From Candidatus Parachristensenella avicola (GTDB lineage Bacteria; Bacillota; Clostridia; Christensenellales; UMGS416): a stretch of DNA of 64,000 nt. The notes beneath the pieces are model-generated. The model saw nothing but the letters and a program-made list of their open reading frames with translations. It made no database searches and had not been told where the DNA came from. Shown one piece after another: positions 7,779-26,478 of the stretch; position 1 is the first letter of the stretch; every line of letters begins with the position of its first letter. The stretch spans positions 1 to 64,000 of the forward strand of contig CAJFUN010000008.1 of the NCBI GenBank assembly GCA_904420205.1, read 5' to 3'. The position numbers and the translations under genes are program-made.

Positions 7779-8660
7779 TCAACCTTTCCCAGGAATTATC
7801 GCGCAAATTCGCGTATTTGCCCCTTTTTTCATCAGCGCTTCCATCACCTCGTTCTCTCCGAGCGTGGCGATGGGGTCGCATTTTTCGTTCAAAACGGTGA
7901 TCAGGTGATAGCGGTGCGGAATAAAGCGCATGGCCAGCTGCCCCAAGGGCATATCCCACCGGGCGACAATTTGCCGTACGGCCATCGTCTCTTCGCTCAG
8001 CAGCTTCTGCTTTTTGCCCGTCAGCTCGCGCAGCCACAGCCAGCTAGCGTTCCTTCGCTCCCGCAGCGCCGTCAAAAGCACCGTCAACCCCAGCAGAATG
8101 GTTACCGCACGCCCCGACCCTCGCAGCCATCCAGCGGCCGCGGCCACGCATAAGGCCGTTCCACCCAGGATACCGAGATCTGCAGCCAGACGCGTGGCCT
8201 TGCCCAAGCTGATGCATCGTGCCAAGGCACTACGGAGAATCCGTCCCCCATCCATTGGCAGCAGCGGCAAAAGGTTAAAGACCGCCAGCTGCAAATTGGC
8301 GGCCACAAAGGGCTCCTGATAAGGAAGCGCCAGCCCTGTATAATGCTGCAGCGTAGTTAGGATCATCACCATCAAAACGTTGGCGGCCGGGCCTGCCAGT
8401 GCGATCAGCATTTCCGACTGAGGCCGCTCTTCAAAAAGCCCCTGGATCTGAGCCACACTCCCGAAGGGAAGCACTTCAATGCGCGTAACGGAGTAACCGC
8501 ACAGCACCGCCGCCAGCACATGGCACAGCTCATGATACAGCACTGATCCAAAGGCCACCAGGAAAAGGGGCAGCTGCCCTGCCCAGGCGGCCAGGACTAT
8601 AAGCGCCATCAGCATCGGGTGGAGCCTGATCTCACAGCCCCTGATCCAGCCGATCCGCAT
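7779..8660 (-). CDS. spoIVFB: SpoIVFB-like intramembrane metalloprotease (M50)
   Basis: Site-2 protease family, 293 residues. In sporulation SpoIVFB cleaves pro-sigma-K in the outer forespore membrane. The zinc motif HELCH lies near residues 43-47, inside the first membrane segments, and the second metal motif NLLPLLPMDGGRIL near residue 130. About six hydrophobic segments are followed by a soluble C-terminal region of about 100 residues that resembles a CBS-type regulatory domain. I prefer ATG at 8660 (MRIGWIRGCEIRLHP) behind GGAGGAG, rather than GTG at 8672. It follows the spoIVFA-like gene, as in the known spoIVF pair. Confidence 0.87.
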   Translation of the reverse strand: MRIGWIRGCEIRLHPMLMALIVLAAWAGQLPLFLVAFGSVLYHELCHVLAAVLCGYSVTRIEVLPFGSVAQIQGLFEERPQSEMLIALAGPAANVLMVMILTTLQHYTGLALPYQEPFVAANLQLAVFNLLPLLPMDGGRILRSALARCISLGKATRLAADLGILGGTALCVAAAAGWLRGSGRAVTILLGLTVLLTALRERRNASWLWLRELTGKKQKLLSEETMAVRQIVARWDMPLGQLAMRFIPHRYHLITVLNEKCDPIATLGENEVMEALMKKGANTRICAIIPGKG

Positions 8661-8711
8661 ACTCTCCTCCACCCTCTCCCGCCGCAGGCTGGCTCCCTCC
8701 GCCGGGAGGCG

Positions 8712-9455
8712 CTATTGTCCGCTGTCCAAAGCGGCAAGATCCACTGCCGTACCGTTCTGGGTGAATTGAAACACAAGTCGCTCCCCTTGGCTGATGGATC
8801 CGATAATATCGCCCGCCCGCAACTCCTGCCCCACGGATACGCTGGTCAGAATGCCCTCGTAAAGGCTTTCATACCCGCTCCCGTGGCGCAGCCGCACATA
8901 GGGTGTGCCATCGTCCCGGGTGCCTTTATAGAATACCGTGCCGTCGGCCACAGCGCACACTGGCCCTTGCGCCGTGTAAACCAGCCCGCGCTCGGTCTTT
9001 TCCGCCGTACCCTCAGCCGGCTGGCGCACGGTAAGCCCGCCTCCTCCAGCGAAAACGGCCACTGCCTGCTCCATCCATTGCCCTACCTGCTGGCGGCCTT
9101 CCTCGACAAATTCGGCGTCGTTCGACACCACGAACCGCAAGCCGTTGACTAGCTCGTCGCTGGCTGGCAGCTCCAGTTTCTGGATACCCAGCACCATCAA
9201 AAAGATCAGGGCGCAAACCATGCACTGCAGCGCTAGGCTGCGGCCCATGGATGGCGAGGCGCGCTTGGCCGGCACCCGGCCGCTGACCTTGGGGCGGTAA
9301 ACCCGCACGCGCCTCGCCTGAACCGACGCCGGCCTGCGCCGGATGGGCGGCGTCGTTATCGGAAGGGGCGCAGCTTTCGGCTTTGCCTCCAAAGGGGATT
9401 CCCTCGGCGGAAGGGGCTGCATTTTCAGCTTTGGTATCGTCTTCTTCGGTTCCAT
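8712..9455 (-). CDS. spoIVFA: SpoIVFA-like membrane protein with degenerate M23 domain
   Basis: Protein of 247 residues: a basic, Pro-rich cytoplasmic N-terminus, one membrane segment (about residues 73-91) and a C-terminal LytM/M23-like fold (GPVCAVADGTVFYKG, YVRLRHGSGYESLYEG, VGQELRAGDIIGSI). The zinc ligands of active M23 peptidases are missing; the final HxH is replaced by VFQFT. This layout, next to spoIVFB, matches SpoIVFA, which holds SpoIVFB inactive until the forespore signals. AGGAGG precedes the ATG. A CATAAGT element at 9484-9490 with GATACTA further upstream loosely resembles a sigma-E promoter. Confidence 0.72.
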   Translation of the reverse strand: MEPKKTIPKLKMQPLPPRESPLEAKPKAAPLPITTPPIRRRPASVQARRVRVYRPKVSGRVPAKRASPSMGRSLALQCMVCALIFLMVLGIQKLELPASDELVNGLRFVVSNDAEFVEEGRQQVGQWMEQAVAVFAGGGGLTVRQPAEGTAEKTERGLVYTAQGPVCAVADGTVFYKGTRDDGTPYVRLRHGSGYESLYEGILTSVSVGQELRAGDIIGSISQGERLVFQFTQNGTAVDLAALDSGQ

Positions 9456-9534: not shown

Positions 9535-9566
9535 AAAAAGAAGCCGTGCGTGCACGGCTTCTTTTA
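9535..9566 (-). terminator. Intrinsic terminator after the CotH/VTC/DUF4956 operon
   Basis: Stem AAGAAGCCGTGC / GCACGGCTTCTT followed on the minus strand by TTTTTTC, about 30 bases after the DUF4956 stop. It closes the three-gene unit. Confidence 0.88.
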
Positions 9567-9595
9567 CGATAACTAGAGCGGTATGGGCAACGTGG

Positions 9596-10294
9596 CTAGG
9601 CGGCATAGTCGCCCTGATAGGAAATAAGCGTAGCGTCATAAACGCCCTCAATGGCCATTAAGTCATTGACGATATAGTTGTTATCGCCGTTCAAGCGCAG
9701 CTCTATGGTCAGCTCTACGCCGTTAGGGGTCACGGCCTTGGACTTCATGCGGGCAGGTTTGGGCAGCCGGTTCACCGCATAGGCCACCTCGTTGGTGGCA
9801 TCAAAGGCGTGACGAATAATGAGCAGATACGCAAAGCTGCCCTTACCGCTGAACATATAAAGCAGATACATGACCAAGCCGATGAGCGCGGATCCAACGA
9901 TGGCGTATAGGTAAAACCCTGTGCCCGCGCCAATGGTGATGCCCACTGCGATAGCCCAGAACATATAAACCGTGTCGATGACGTCCTTCACCGCTGTACG
10001 GAAACGGACGATGGACAAGGCGCCGACCATGCCCAGCGACAGCGCCAGGTTTGCCGTGATGCATCGGATGATCAGCGTTGTAACCATGGCCAGCATGATC
10101 AGCGACTGGTTAAACGTCTTGGAATACAGCACGCCGTTAAAGGTACGCTTATAGATAAAGAAGATGAACACACCCAAACCAAAGGATACCGCCATAGCCA
10201 GAAGAAGATCCAGCACGTCTATCGATCCTGAGGTAAAGTTGGCCAGGAATCCATCCTTAATGATGTCGCCAAAGCCGGTTGTGGTAAGTAGCAT
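9596..10294 (-). CDS. DUF4956 membrane protein
   Basis: Protein of 232 residues with about four membrane segments (residues about 25-50, 62-90, 108-125 and 128-145) and a soluble C-terminal domain of about 90 residues. The conserved MVGALSIVRFRTAVKD, between the second and third segments, marks the DUF4956 family. The function is unknown, but the family repeatedly occurs beside VTC-domain polyphosphate polymerases, as here: the gene starts 36 bases after the VTC gene and ends at the operon terminator. A role as membrane partner or channel of the polymerase is an inference. The soluble tail (VELTIELRLNGDN, VYDATLISYQGD) has an ACT/ferredoxin-like look. Confidence 0.85.
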   Translation of the reverse strand: MLLTTTGFGDIIKDGFLANFTSGSIDVLDLLLAMAVSFGLGVFIFFIYKRTFNGVLYSKTFNQSLIMLAMVTTLIIRCITANLALSLGMVGALSIVRFRTAVKDVIDTVYMFWAIAVGITIGAGTGFYLYAIVGSALIGLVMYLLYMFSGKGSFAYLLIIRHAFDATNEVAYAVNRLPKPARMKSKAVTPNGVELTIELRLNGDNNYIVNDLMAIEGVYDATLISYQGDYAA

Positions 10295-10330
10295 ATCAGT
10301 TCCTCCCTCGTTTCATTTCCTTCTTTTCCG

Positions 10331-11029
10331 TCAGTGGAAGCGACGGCATAGGGCATATTTTGAAATCGCAGACCGTGTGGCCTTGATACTGGAAAGGATT
10401 CCCTGAATGTGGGGCGGGAGGAAGTTATCGTACTTAACCTCCAAGATCATAACCCCTGGGGGCAGGATCGGGACCGTAGACACATGGCCGGAAAAGATGT
10501 CCGTGGAAAACTGCCCGGAATGCAGGAATCGGTCGAAAGTGACGCGTACATTCCCCGCCTGATAGGTATAAGCCTCGCGATGATAATCCACGATGACCAC
10601 CGGCTTAAGCAACCGGGTACGCATGTCGGCATAGAGCTCGTCAATCAGCGCGCTCTTACCCAGGCGAATTGACTGCCAATCGTTTTGAAGGATCGAATCA
10701 CACATTTTCCGCGACAGCCCTGTTGAATCTTTAGCGGTCATCTGGTCGAATTTCATCTTTTTCTCCAGCTTTATGCTGTGATCCTGCAGGTTGTAGATAC
10801 GGATACGGAATTTTTTCCGCACGATAACGCCGTCCTGCTTTTCCCACATGGCAGTATTATAAATGTCGTCAAAATACAGCGAACGGATATGGTAGCCCCG
10901 CATATCGTCCCGAGCGTTATCGTCCAGGGGCATTGCCGCTAGGAGACGGTCACGGAGCACCACATACTCGCCTTCGGTTATAAAGTATTTCAGCTCATAG
11001 CGCAGCTGTCTGCCGTTGATGGTCGCCAT
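10331..11029 (-). CDS. VTC-domain polyphosphate polymerase
   Basis: Protein of 232 residues of the triphosphate-tunnel VTC family, which makes polyphosphate from ATP in yeast vacuoles. Tunnel motifs are present in order: RYELKYFI at the start, YHIRSLYFDD, RKKFRIRIYN, IKLEKKMK, VVDYHREAY, VRVTFDRFL and ILEVKYD; the basic and acidic residues that line the tunnel are kept. It lacks the SPX domain of the eukaryotic enzymes. I start it at ATG 11029 behind GAGG; a GTG at 11041 overlaps the CotH stop but has no spaced ribosome site. Coupling with the CotH and DUF4956 genes suggests a membrane-linked polyphosphate function. Confidence 0.88.
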   Translation of the reverse strand: MATINGRQLRYELKYFITEGEYVVLRDRLLAAMPLDDNARDDMRGYHIRSLYFDDIYNTAMWEKQDGVIVRKKFRIRIYNLQDHSIKLEKKMKFDQMTAKDSTGLSRKMCDSILQNDWQSIRLGKSALIDELYADMRTRLLKPVVIVDYHREAYTYQAGNVRVTFDRFLHSGQFSTDIFSGHVSTVPILPPGVMILEVKYDNFLPPHIQGILSSIKATRSAISKYALCRRFH

Positions 11030-11037
11030 CTTCCGCC

Positions 11038-14000
11038 TCACTCTCCAAAGTACTGTGCGTATTCCGCGTCGGTCATGTGGAGATCTTCCCGGATATACTG
11101 CTTAAAATACTCCGGATGCCCCGTCGCATACTCCCGAAGCCGTCCGACCATCTTCTTCCAGCCGGCGTAGGAGATCGCGCCGGCGTTGGGGTCGTCCTTG
11201 CTGTATTGGTTCCAGTAGGTGCGGTCGCGCTCCATCTCGGGATCCAGCATGGCCTCCAGCTCGTTGATGCGCGCCACCACGGTCTCGGGATTGTACATCA
11301 CATTACAGATATAGGCGGCCCGCTCCAGGAACAGGCTGCGGAACTCACTGTTTTTCAGCAAGTTCACCTGCAGGGTGGTATCGAACATATTGCCGGTACC
11401 ATGACCCCGTGGATCGATGTATTCCTCCACCATGTCCAGGGAGATATATCTTGTCATAAAGGACCAGTCCGTATCGTACAGCACCCAGCGCCACTTGCCA
11501 TCGGTGTCCGGCGACATGTAGAACTTAATATTGCCGGTATCGGTATTGCCGCAGTACATCTCGATCAGCATGTAGTCGATAAAGTTCTGCACATCCATTT
11601 TGGTTTTGACGTATTCATAGTTCTCGGTTACGGACATATCATGGGTCTTCACGTATTCCAGCAGGGCCAAATAATCCTCGTTGCTCCCCTGCTGTACGTA
11701 GGAGGCTTTGTTACCATTACCCACCAGTAGGTTCACCTTATCAGGATCGGCGCCGGTATGCCGCGCGATAAACTGCGCGTTTGTCTTTTCCTGGATAAAG
11801 TAGACACCCCAATACTGGCCGTTCAGATACATGACCACCGGCCGGAAGGACTGTGCCAACACGTCAGTGTGGTCCATCGCCAGTGAAGAATTCAGGACAT
11901 CACGGATCATGGTCATGTTCCACTCGGAAGCGCCGGAGCGCAGCACGAAACTCTTATACTGCTCATAGGGCAGATTATCGAAGATCGGATAATTGAAATA
12001 CGCCTCGCCATACTCGCCGCGCGCCATGCAGGCAAAGGACTTTTTCACGTGCCCGCGAGAATACGCGCCAAAGATCCGAAGCCCGAAATTCTGGTCCAAG
12101 GACACGCTGCCATCCGTTTCCAGCAGCTCAATATGACCCAGGCGCTCCCAATTTTGGTTGAAATTGGCGTCCCGATAAGGGAAATCCTCGCTGCTGGGAT
12201 AGGTATACTTGGCCTTTGCTTCGGTGCCTAGTGCATAGATGCCTTTTTCATCGCTGAAAAGGTCGTCGGGATCGGCCACCACCGATACAACCGGCAGCGT
12301 ATGATCTTCGCCAATCAGGATCGTAACGGAATCAATATCACTGCCCAAATACCCGTCCCGGAAAGCCTTTGTGCGGATTACCGTATTCTTGTCCACCGTA
12401 ATAGGGCCGGTGTATTGCGTACTCTGTTGGGTGGGCTCGGTGCAGTCGGTCGTATAGTAGACCGTCGTTCCCTCCGGTACGTTAATCTCCACCTGCTGGG
12501 CGCTATCATAGATTCCCCCCAGCGTAATCGCCTGAGGCATGGGGCACATTCCTAGGTAGCTCTCCCCGCTGTTGGCTGCGCCCGGCGTTGGATTGGACAT
12601 ATAGAGAAAGGCGCTCTCCCCCTCGGCCCGGGCAAAGGTCATCCCTGCAGGAACCCGCGACACCTGGCAAATATCGATCACGTTGTTGTCGGGGTCTGTC
12701 AATACCAGGGTCTCTCCCGAGGAGGAGATACTAAAATTTGCATTCAACTTCTGCGCGGCAGACAACTCGCCTGAGACGCCCTGGCTATTGGCAAAGACAA
12801 TCGTACGCTCACCGGCCTGCAGCGTCACGTCGGGGAACTTCCATGTACCCAAATGCTTCGTATTGTCGGTTAGCCCATATCCGGCCAGGTTAACCGCTTG
12901 TCCGGAACGGTTGGTAATCTCAATCCAGCTGCCGTACTGCTCAAATTCATCGGCCAAGGTATCCACATTGTTGAGCATGACCTCTGTAATGAAAATACCT
13001 GTTTCATTCGCCTGCACACGGCTGGACTGAAAAGCGTTGTAACCATCGTCATTGTTGGCAAATCCCGGCGTGGGCTTGGTCTGTACCGACCAGGAACCGC
13101 TGCCGTCCCGCGCGTAGCTGCTGTCCGCTTCCAGGCCTTTAACTTCCACCTCATCCAGGATACGGCCCTGCTTATCGGATAGCACAACCGTTTCCTCGGC
13201 AGAGTTCAGGCCAAAGTCCGTATGCAGGTACCCCGCTTCATCCGTGGTATTTTTCTTCGAGCAGAAGACGACCAGCATCGCGCCCGGCTCGATCTTCGTC
13301 CCCTCCGGGAAGCTCCACTGCTTGGGGCTGCTTACGGTGTCGCTCAGGCCATAGCCGGACAGGTCGACCGTCTCCGTACCATTGTTCACGATCTCTACCC
13401 AATCGTTATACTGTCCGTCCCCGTCCTTTAGCGTCACGTTATTGGAAGTCATAATCTCATTCAGAAGCAGCGTAGAGTCCTCCACGCGAATCGACTTCTG
13501 GAATGCCTCCCAGCCGGCGTCGTCATTGCTATACCCAGGCGTATATCGTTCATAATTCCGCCATTGGTTGGTAGCCGAGTCCAGCCCATAGGAAATATCC
13601 GAACCCATCGCCGGCAACGCTACCTTCTGCATCTCATTCCCGTATGTATCGCAAAGGTAAATATTATCGCCGGAGGAGCTGAGCTTGAAGGGGGCGTGCA
13701 GCTCGCCTTCGGGCACATTGTCGCCGGTCAGATCCGAGCAATAGACGATGAGGTAGCTCTTCGGTTCCAGCACCATCTTATCAAATACAAACCGGTTGGG
13801 ATTGTCCAGCTTATCCGTCAACCCATATCCCTGCAAGCTGATGGGCTGGTCGGTAGGGTTATAAAGCTCGACCCAATCATAATATCCTCCATCAACCGAG
13901 CAAAGGGCACCCTTGTTGGAGGACATGGCTTCGGTAATCATCAGCGTGCTGCCGTCCACCGGCGTAGTGGTCCCGTCCCCCTGGGAGCTGCCCGGAGCAG

Positions 14001-14349
14001 TGGCGCTGGGCGTGCCGCCTCCGTTGTTCTCCACAAGCGGAGCGACGATAGCGATGATCAGTACAATGGCTACCGCCAAAATCAGAATATCCACGACACG
14101 CGAGCGCTTGGGGCCATGGCCGCCGCTTTTACCGCCTTGTGCGCTGCCCCGCGGTGCAGCGTTCGTCCTCTGGGCGGGCGCGGTGCGGGAATGGGGGGCT
14201 CCTTCGCTTCTGCGGGCCGCATAGCCCTGGGGCGCAGCCTGGCGGCCGGATGCCGTAGCGCGTGCCGCGCCTCGCGCACCCTGAGGAGCGCGTGCGGCCG
14301 GCCGCTGGGCCCTCCTGTCGTCTGGCGTTCTACTGGGCAAATCGATCAA
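11038..14349 (-). CDS. Surface protein with three lamin-tail domains and CotH kinase domain
   Basis: Protein of 1103 residues. In order: a very basic Ala/Arg-rich cytoplasmic N-terminus (1-84); one membrane segment (about 85-106); three lamin-tail domains of about 110 residues (near 136-250, 295-405 and 450-560), each opening with an ITEAM, LNEIM or ITEVM strand and a WVE/WIE core; a chitobiase-type beta sandwich (about 615-675, VYYTTDCTEPT); and a CotH kinase domain (about 690-1090) with MIRDVLNSSLA, GVYFIQEKTN, DTGNIKFY and WRWVLYDTDWSFM. CotH proteins are atypical kinases that phosphorylate spore-coat proteins. Topology places the C-terminal domains outside the membrane. The start is TTG at 14349 behind GGAAAGG. 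Confidence 0.86.
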   Translation of the reverse strand: MIDLPSRTPDDRRAQRPAARAPQGARGAARATASGRQAAPQGYAARRSEGAPHSRTAPAQRTNAAPRGSAQGGKSGGHGPKRSRVVDILILAVAIVLIIAIVAPLVENNGGGTPSATAPGSSQGDGTTTPVDGSTLMITEAMSSNKGALCSVDGGYYDWVELYNPTDQPISLQGYGLTDKLDNPNRFVFDKMVLEPKSYLIVYCSDLTGDNVPEGELHAPFKLSSSGDNIYLCDTYGNEMQKVALPAMGSDISYGLDSATNQWRNYERYTPGYSNDDAGWEAFQKSIRVEDSTLLLNEIMTSNNVTLKDGDGQYNDWVEIVNNGTETVDLSGYGLSDTVSSPKQWSFPEGTKIEPGAMLVVFCSKKNTTDEAGYLHTDFGLNSAEETVVLSDKQGRILDEVEVKGLEADSSYARDGSGSWSVQTKPTPGFANNDDGYNAFQSSRVQANETGIFITEVMLNNVDTLADEFEQYGSWIEITNRSGQAVNLAGYGLTDNTKHLGTWKFPDVTLQAGERTIVFANSQGVSGELSAAQKLNANFSISSSGETLVLTDPDNNVIDICQVSRVPAGMTFARAEGESAFLYMSNPTPGAANSGESYLGMCPMPQAITLGGIYDSAQQVEINVPEGTTVYYTTDCTEPTQQSTQYTGPITVDKNTVIRTKAFRDGYLGSDIDSVTILIGEDHTLPVVSVVADPDDLFSDEKGIYALGTEAKAKYTYPSSEDFPYRDANFNQNWERLGHIELLETDGSVSLDQNFGLRIFGAYSRGHVKKSFACMARGEYGEAYFNYPIFDNLPYEQYKSFVLRSGASEWNMTMIRDVLNSSLAMDHTDVLAQSFRPVVMYLNGQYWGVYFIQEKTNAQFIARHTGADPDKVNLLVGNGNKASYVQQGSNEDYLALLEYVKTHDMSVTENYEYVKTKMDVQNFIDYMLIEMYCGNTDTGNIKFYMSPDTDGKWRWVLYDTDWSFMTRYISLDMVEEYIDPRGHGTGNMFDTTLQVNLLKNSEFRSLFLERAAYICNVMYNPETVVARINELEAMLDPEMERDRTYWNQYSKDDPNAGAISYAGWKKMVGRLREYATGHPEYFKQYIREDLHMTDAEYAQYFGE

Positions 14350-14426
14350 CTGCCTTTCCTTCTATTGTTCCGTCTTTTAAGATATTTTGTTTGACGTTTT
14401 CGTTACAAAGCCGGTTCCATCCCTTT

Positions 14427-14454
14427 ATTATAGTGGACCTGCCGCGTTTGTCAA
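14427..14454 (-). promoter_or_regulatory. Sigma-A promoter of the CotH/VTC/DUF4956 operon
   Basis: TTGACA at 14449-14454 and TATAAT at 14427-14432, both perfect, with a 16-base spacer. It implies vegetative rather than purely sporulation expression of the cassette. Confidence 0.83.
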
Positions 14455-26175: not shown

Positions 26176-26478
26176 GAAAAAATAAAAGCTCCCGCCGACG
26201 GAATATCATTCCGAGGGACGAGAGCAAACGCTTCGTGTTACCACCCATTTTCATTCATACCTCGCGGTATGAACCTTATCAACTACGGGCCGCAGGGGGC
26301 CGATAGCCTAGCGCAATATAACGGACGCATCCGTCGCAGCCTAACGCCTCTGGCGTTTCGGTGCGCAGCTCCGAGACCATGTTCAGCCGTTTGTCCTTTA
26401 TCCCTTTTCAGCTACCGGGACTCTCTAAAAAAGAACGGAACCGCCTACTCTTCTCTTCACAGCCTTTCCGATTCACTT
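26176..26478 (-). ncRNA. T-box riboswitch, methionine-specific
   Basis: Classic T-box leader on the minus strand. The Stem I distal motif AGAGAG is at 26421-26426, followed by GGTAGCTGAAAA. The specifier loop GAAC-ATG-GTCTCGGAG has codon ATG at 26378-26380. The T-box TGGGTGGTAACACG is at 26234-26247. The terminator has a long GC stem (about 26187-26226) followed by TTTTATTTTTT. The UGGU bulge would pair with an ACCA tRNA end, as in tRNA-Met. Uncharged tRNA-Met should allow read-through into rbsK, the CBS gene and metNIQ. Confidence 0.92.

Follow-up and report, generated by a model that had tools for sequence, protein, structure and literature searches.

A CotH, VTC and DUF4956 gene cassette in Candidatus Parachristensenella avicola as a candidate envelope polyphosphate module

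The 64,000-nucleotide stretch of Candidatus Parachristensenella avicola DNA analysed here (the window) carries three packed genes for a lamin tail domain (LTD)-CotH surface protein, a VTC-type polyphosphate polymerase and a DUF4956 membrane protein. We read this operon as an envelope polyphosphate module, in which VTC and DUF4956 would be combined with an exchangeable extracytoplasmic effector, and put the probability of this reading at about one half. The triad itself is a widespread envelope module and more than an accessory of one biofilm sugar. What had been a curiosity of Pel loci becomes a general arrangement of a polymerase and a membrane protein with two interchangeable secreted partners. 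It is a specific candidate for a bacterial system in which polyphosphate is made in connection with the cell surface, and it prompts one to ask how extracellular kinase-like proteins are supplied.

The cassette and its three products

All three genes lie on the minus strand, in the order promoter, LTD-CotH, VTC, DUF4956 and terminator, and all coordinates of the cassette given below refer to that strand. Specifically, a sigma-70 promoter (TTGACA-16-TATAAT, 14427..14454) that matches the consensus at 12 of 12 positions precedes the gene for the membrane-anchored LTD-CotH surface protein (1103 aa, 11038..14349; supported by the ORF, Pfam and the same architecture in relatives). This gene overlaps the VTC gene (236 aa, 10331..11041) by 4 nt, the DUF4956 gene (232 aa, 9596..10294) follows after 36 nt, and an intrinsic terminator recognizable from the sequence (9536..9565) closes the unit with a 13-pair stem and a T-rich tail. 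The first-pass annotation had proposed one promoter and three tightly packed genes of these identities, and both points are borne out, with the Pfam matches for LTD/CotH, VTC and DUF4956 all above their cut-offs. The cassette is far above chance, since these scores lie well past the curated cut-offs and the three-gene order is repeated in the window's own family, where 7/7 other genomes searched have VTC and a CotH-VTC-DUF4956 array; in four of the seven the CotH protein has three lamin tail domains (the contig ends within one of the copies).

The LTD-CotH protein begins with a basic, Arg/Ala-rich tail that is predicted to be cytoplasmic (residues 1-84, 14098..14349; 19 Ala, 15 Arg, net charge +13), followed by a transmembrane segment predicted from hydropathy (residues 85-101, 14047..14097). 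Domain matches then place three lamin tail domains (residues 136-238, 13636..13944; residues 294-399, 13153..13470; residues 452-559, 12673..12996; 174 bits for the three copies), and Pfam adds a CHB_HEX_C_1/Fn3_assoc domain (residues 611-671, 12337..12519) and the CotH kinase-like domain (residues 757-1081, 11107..12081; 154 bits). Membership of the latter in PF08757 is supported by the profile match and by conservation of the catalytic residues, including the aspartates, in the alignment to 5jd9 (N935, D937, D959 and K769/K770 are kept). The single-pass topology with an outward CotH domain that had been claimed earlier is likewise what the N-terminal transmembrane segment predicts. The likeness to the Bacillus spore-coat CotH (5jd9) lies in the kinase-like domain with its conserved catalytic aspartates, whereas spore-type proteins are short, have neither signal peptide nor transmembrane segment and are unlinked to VTC; the window protein, at 1103 aa, is membrane-anchored, predicted to face outward and encoded behind a sigma-70-type promoter. 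The module is not the spore-coat CotH system.

The Arg/Ala-rich N-terminus is probably real and not an annotation artefact, since a Shine-Dalgarno-like AGAAGGAAAGG (14353..14363, read from the sequence) stands ahead of the TTG start. It had also been suggested to bind polyphosphate on the inside. Basic tails are indeed found in most near relatives, and this part stands; yet they vary from 8 to 74 residues (net +1 to +12) with no evident sequence conservation, and positive-inside topology could by itself be enough to account for them, which leaves polyphosphate binding doubtful.

The second product scores 133 bits against PF09359 (cut-off 23) and consists of a single domain at residues 14-231. 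The VTC profile reaches yeast Vtc4 with an E of 1e-20, and all eight of the Vtc4 residues K200, R264, R266, K281, K294, Y359, R361 and R373 align to matching profile residues, with counterparts in the window protein that are invariant among 54 proteins. A C-terminal set outside the Vtc4 alignment (E201, K203, S227 and K228) is also invariant or nearly so. A PDB sequence search with the window VTC alone as query gave chance matches only; its predicted structure (pLDDT 94.9) has Vtc4 (3g3r) as its best Foldseek match, with an E of 5e-14, ahead of other tunnel enzymes. Because the eight aligned residues are conserved, a catalytically dead enzyme is unlikely, and residues and predicted fold together suggest polymerase activity. 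Triphosphatases and class IV adenylate cyclases appear among the lower-ranked structure matches, and the shared fold could in principle accommodate another tunnel metalloenzyme (a tripolyphosphatase or a nucleotide-processing enzyme) and no polymerase at all; with Vtc4 on top in both sequence and structure and its eight residues kept, we consider this highly improbable. The yeast VTC complex (Vtc4 with Vtc1/Vtc3) is thus comparable in its polymerase domain fold, its catalytic residues and its membrane-partnered polymerase, but the bacterial protein has no counterpart of Vtc4's SPX and transmembrane regions, its partner DUF4956 is distinct from Vtc1, and the membrane concerned would be that of the cell as opposed to the vacuole.

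The third product reaches 39.4 bits against PF16316 (cut-off 30.6) and has several predicted membrane helices followed by a C-terminal ACT-like domain. In Foldseek, MgtC C-termini rank first and second for this C-terminal fold, but with no E below 0.001, and by VIA-align other ACT domains match it as well as MgtC does. The NCBIfam MgtC/SapB profile gives 18.4 bits, below its cut-off of 214, and a PDB sequence search with the window DUF4956 alone as query gave chance matches only. The protein looks MgtC-like. Two arginines, R97 and R99, do not vary across 50 sequences and lie in a loop between predicted helices, where one may speculate that they line a polyphosphate path. Against the envelope-module reading, the nearest solved folds (the ACT-like ends of MgtC and other ACT domains) are regulatory and not channels.

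Distribution across genomes and the exchangeable third partner

Every family was sought in one common set of 348 genomes from the phylum, with 14 control genomes besides; gene neighbours at VTC loci were found by scanning all ORFs, and a scan for relatives used a 17-sequence VTC alignment and gave 80 named ones. VTC and DUF4956 occur in identical sets of genomes (59 = 59 of 348, 32 families; Fisher p 3e-68, which, like the other p-value of this survey, is too small owing to relatedness among the genomes, although the pattern spans many families). Their genes are almost always adjacent, with a median gap of 9 nt and an overlap in 47/147 pairs. CotH is present in 52/348 genomes and splits by length and N-terminus into secreted and short forms. 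The secreted form, found in 46/348, is nearly confined to genomes with VTC (45/59, vs 1/289 without; p 6e-43, subject to the same relatedness), and an N-terminal hydrophobic segment is present in 103/112 VTC-linked CotH ORFs, most of the other nine looking truncated. Short CotH proteins without signal peptide are not near VTC, and occur in four genomes without it. The co-occurrence of the families, named beforehand as the point on which the first-pass annotation could fail, has therefore held. The sole exception for the secreted form is G068 (93% complete), in which no VTC was detected and whose contig C9 (L102) encodes a lipoprotein-like CotH.

Where CotH is not the partner, a second protein family takes its place. 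The Cthe_2159 beta-helix protein is encoded in 39/348 genomes, 34 of them with VTC; either it or a secreted CotH is encoded in 59/59 VTC genomes (32 families), and the third gene at sampled VTC loci is CotH at 38 and Cthe_2159 at 19. In the control genomes, VTC and DUF4956 are both present in the same three, all of other phyla (C. glutamicum, M. acetivorans and B. ihuae); C. glutamicum and M. acetivorans also have CotH, and B. ihuae has Cthe_2159. Among the 80 named relatives, DUF4956 is near 79 VTC genes and CotH near 70.

Many VTC loci (33) are also adjoined by response-regulator and kinase genes. Taken with the match of the DUF4956 C-terminal fold to MgtC C-termini and ACT domains, and with the weak MgtC profile match, these neighbours would suit a role in phosphate or magnesium sensing, where an MgtC-like DUF4956 uses its ACT domain to detect a ligand in the cytoplasm and controls VTC, polyphosphate stays internal and the surface protein is merely co-regulated. 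This account leaves unexplained why one of two secreted partners is found in every VTC genome, and why secreted CotH is so nearly restricted to them, and we regard it as unlikely.

A few loci depart from the usual form. At L229 (6019-7356) a fusion protein joins VTC to the C-terminal half of a CotH domain, and DUF4956 is absent from the neighbourhood; this is probably what a deletion left of a VTC-DUF4956-CotH array. The VTC proteins of L226, L227 and L228 carry N-terminal extensions of roughly 190-275 residues.

Relation to Pel loci

The three families had been thought to lack a joint described function. This is incorrect, since genes for CotH, a polyphosphate polymerase and DUF4956 have been published as accessories of Gram-positive Pel loci (PMC7112168; PMC12345266), with mutant phenotypes. 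In S. intermedius (SIR_1592-1594) the same three families are adjacent and CotH is secreted, and the accessory DUF4956 protein has been described with an MgtC-type membrane domain and an ACT domain (PMC7112168; PMC12345266). Without the CotH gene, cells aggregated less in sputum medium and had less Pel; without the DUF4956 gene they also aggregated less, but had more Pel (PMC12345266). The mutants reported to differ in Pel or aggregation include these two but not the one that lacks the polymerase gene (PMC12345266), a further point against the envelope-module reading. The window differs from these loci in its gene order (CotH-VTC-DUF4956), in the three lamin tail domains and basic cytoplasmic tail of its CotH protein, and in having no PelG match in its genome (assembly 90.8% complete).

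The arrangement was reported not to be found outside the Pel locus (PMC12345266). Contrary to that report, the triad is common outside Pel loci, since PelG is found in only 2/59 VTC genomes and near only 11/80 named relatives, and is absent from the window's genome; the module does not depend on Pel. Where Pel is present, fusions of PelG with CotH that occur naturally in two Paenibacillus loci (L147 2877-5984 and L166 2877-5984; 1036 aa each), with VTC and DUF4956 immediately after, support an action of CotH outside the cell at the polymer exporter.

These fusions, together with the Pel loci that carry all three genes and the altered Pel or aggregation of the CotH and DUF4956 mutants (PMC7112168; PMC12345266), would also fit a triad that tunes how a surface polysaccharide is made or exported. 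In that case CotH would phosphorylate either the polymer or a component of the synthase, and polyphosphate would be secondary. In L067 the triad has a GT2 glycosyltransferase gene as neighbour, and related genes occur in L015 and L053, which points the same way. Given the rarity of PelG among these genomes and a window cassette without a polysaccharide synthase, we hold such an accessory role to be possible but rather unlikely. A comparable grouping has been described in C. perfringens NELoc-2, where a CotH gene has two VTC genes beside it, a gene for a small membrane protein coming after each of the two, in a locus with a glycosyltransferase (PMC2879425); the small membrane genes were annotated there as tubulin/FtsZ GTPase (PMC2879425), and we infer that they encode DUF4956.

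A working model and the second locus

In the envelope-module reading, VTC would act as a soluble tunnel enzyme at the cytoplasmic face of the membrane and make polyphosphate from ATP, while DUF4956 would be its constant membrane partner that (i) anchors or regulates VTC and (ii) perhaps moves the chain to the other side of the membrane, a part taken in the yeast VTC complex by the transmembrane subunits. The third gene would supply the exchangeable extracytoplasmic effector, served or accompanied by polyphosphate: in the window this would be the transmembrane-anchored LTD-CotH kinase, putatively modifying surface proteins or polymers, and at a second locus of the same genome the Cthe_2159 beta-helix protein.

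That second locus (contig C7, L006 7135-10361) has a VTC-DUF4956 pair followed by the Cthe_2159 gene; upstream of the pair lie sensor kinase and response regulator genes. PPK1 is encoded elsewhere in the genome, so VTC is not needed there for bulk storage, and the presence of both partner types and a separate polyphosphate synthase in one genome fits a specialised, non-bulk role of VTC. The argument is not general, because 40/59 VTC genomes are without PPK1, which also speaks against the envelope-module reading; in those genomes polyphosphate might ordinarily be made by VTC.

A more specific proposal makes VTC and DUF4956 a synthase-exporter, and lets the secreted CotH take exported polyphosphate as its phosphate donor, since ATP is scarce outside the cell. 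Among VTC-linked CotH proteins, those that have no lamin tail domains mostly keep the aromatic pair at chain positions 143 and 246 of 5jd9, which we take to sandwich the nucleotide, and the LTD type has partly lost it (the window protein has N and Y there); for this reason we consider the proposal very unlikely; the presumed nucleotide pocket is mostly retained in CotH, which counts against polyphosphate as the sole donor. In the literature searched, nothing turned up on polyphosphate that donates phosphate at the bacterial surface, and a search on CotH in combination with VTC and DUF4956 gave no hits either.

Two further features of the window lie outside the cassette. M50 and M23 peptidase genes stand beside a TIGR03960 radical SAM gene at 7779-9455, which resembles the clostridial spoIVFB/spoIVFA arrangement, and a T-box leader (Rfam RF00230, 98 bits) is found at 26211-26469 on the minus strand.
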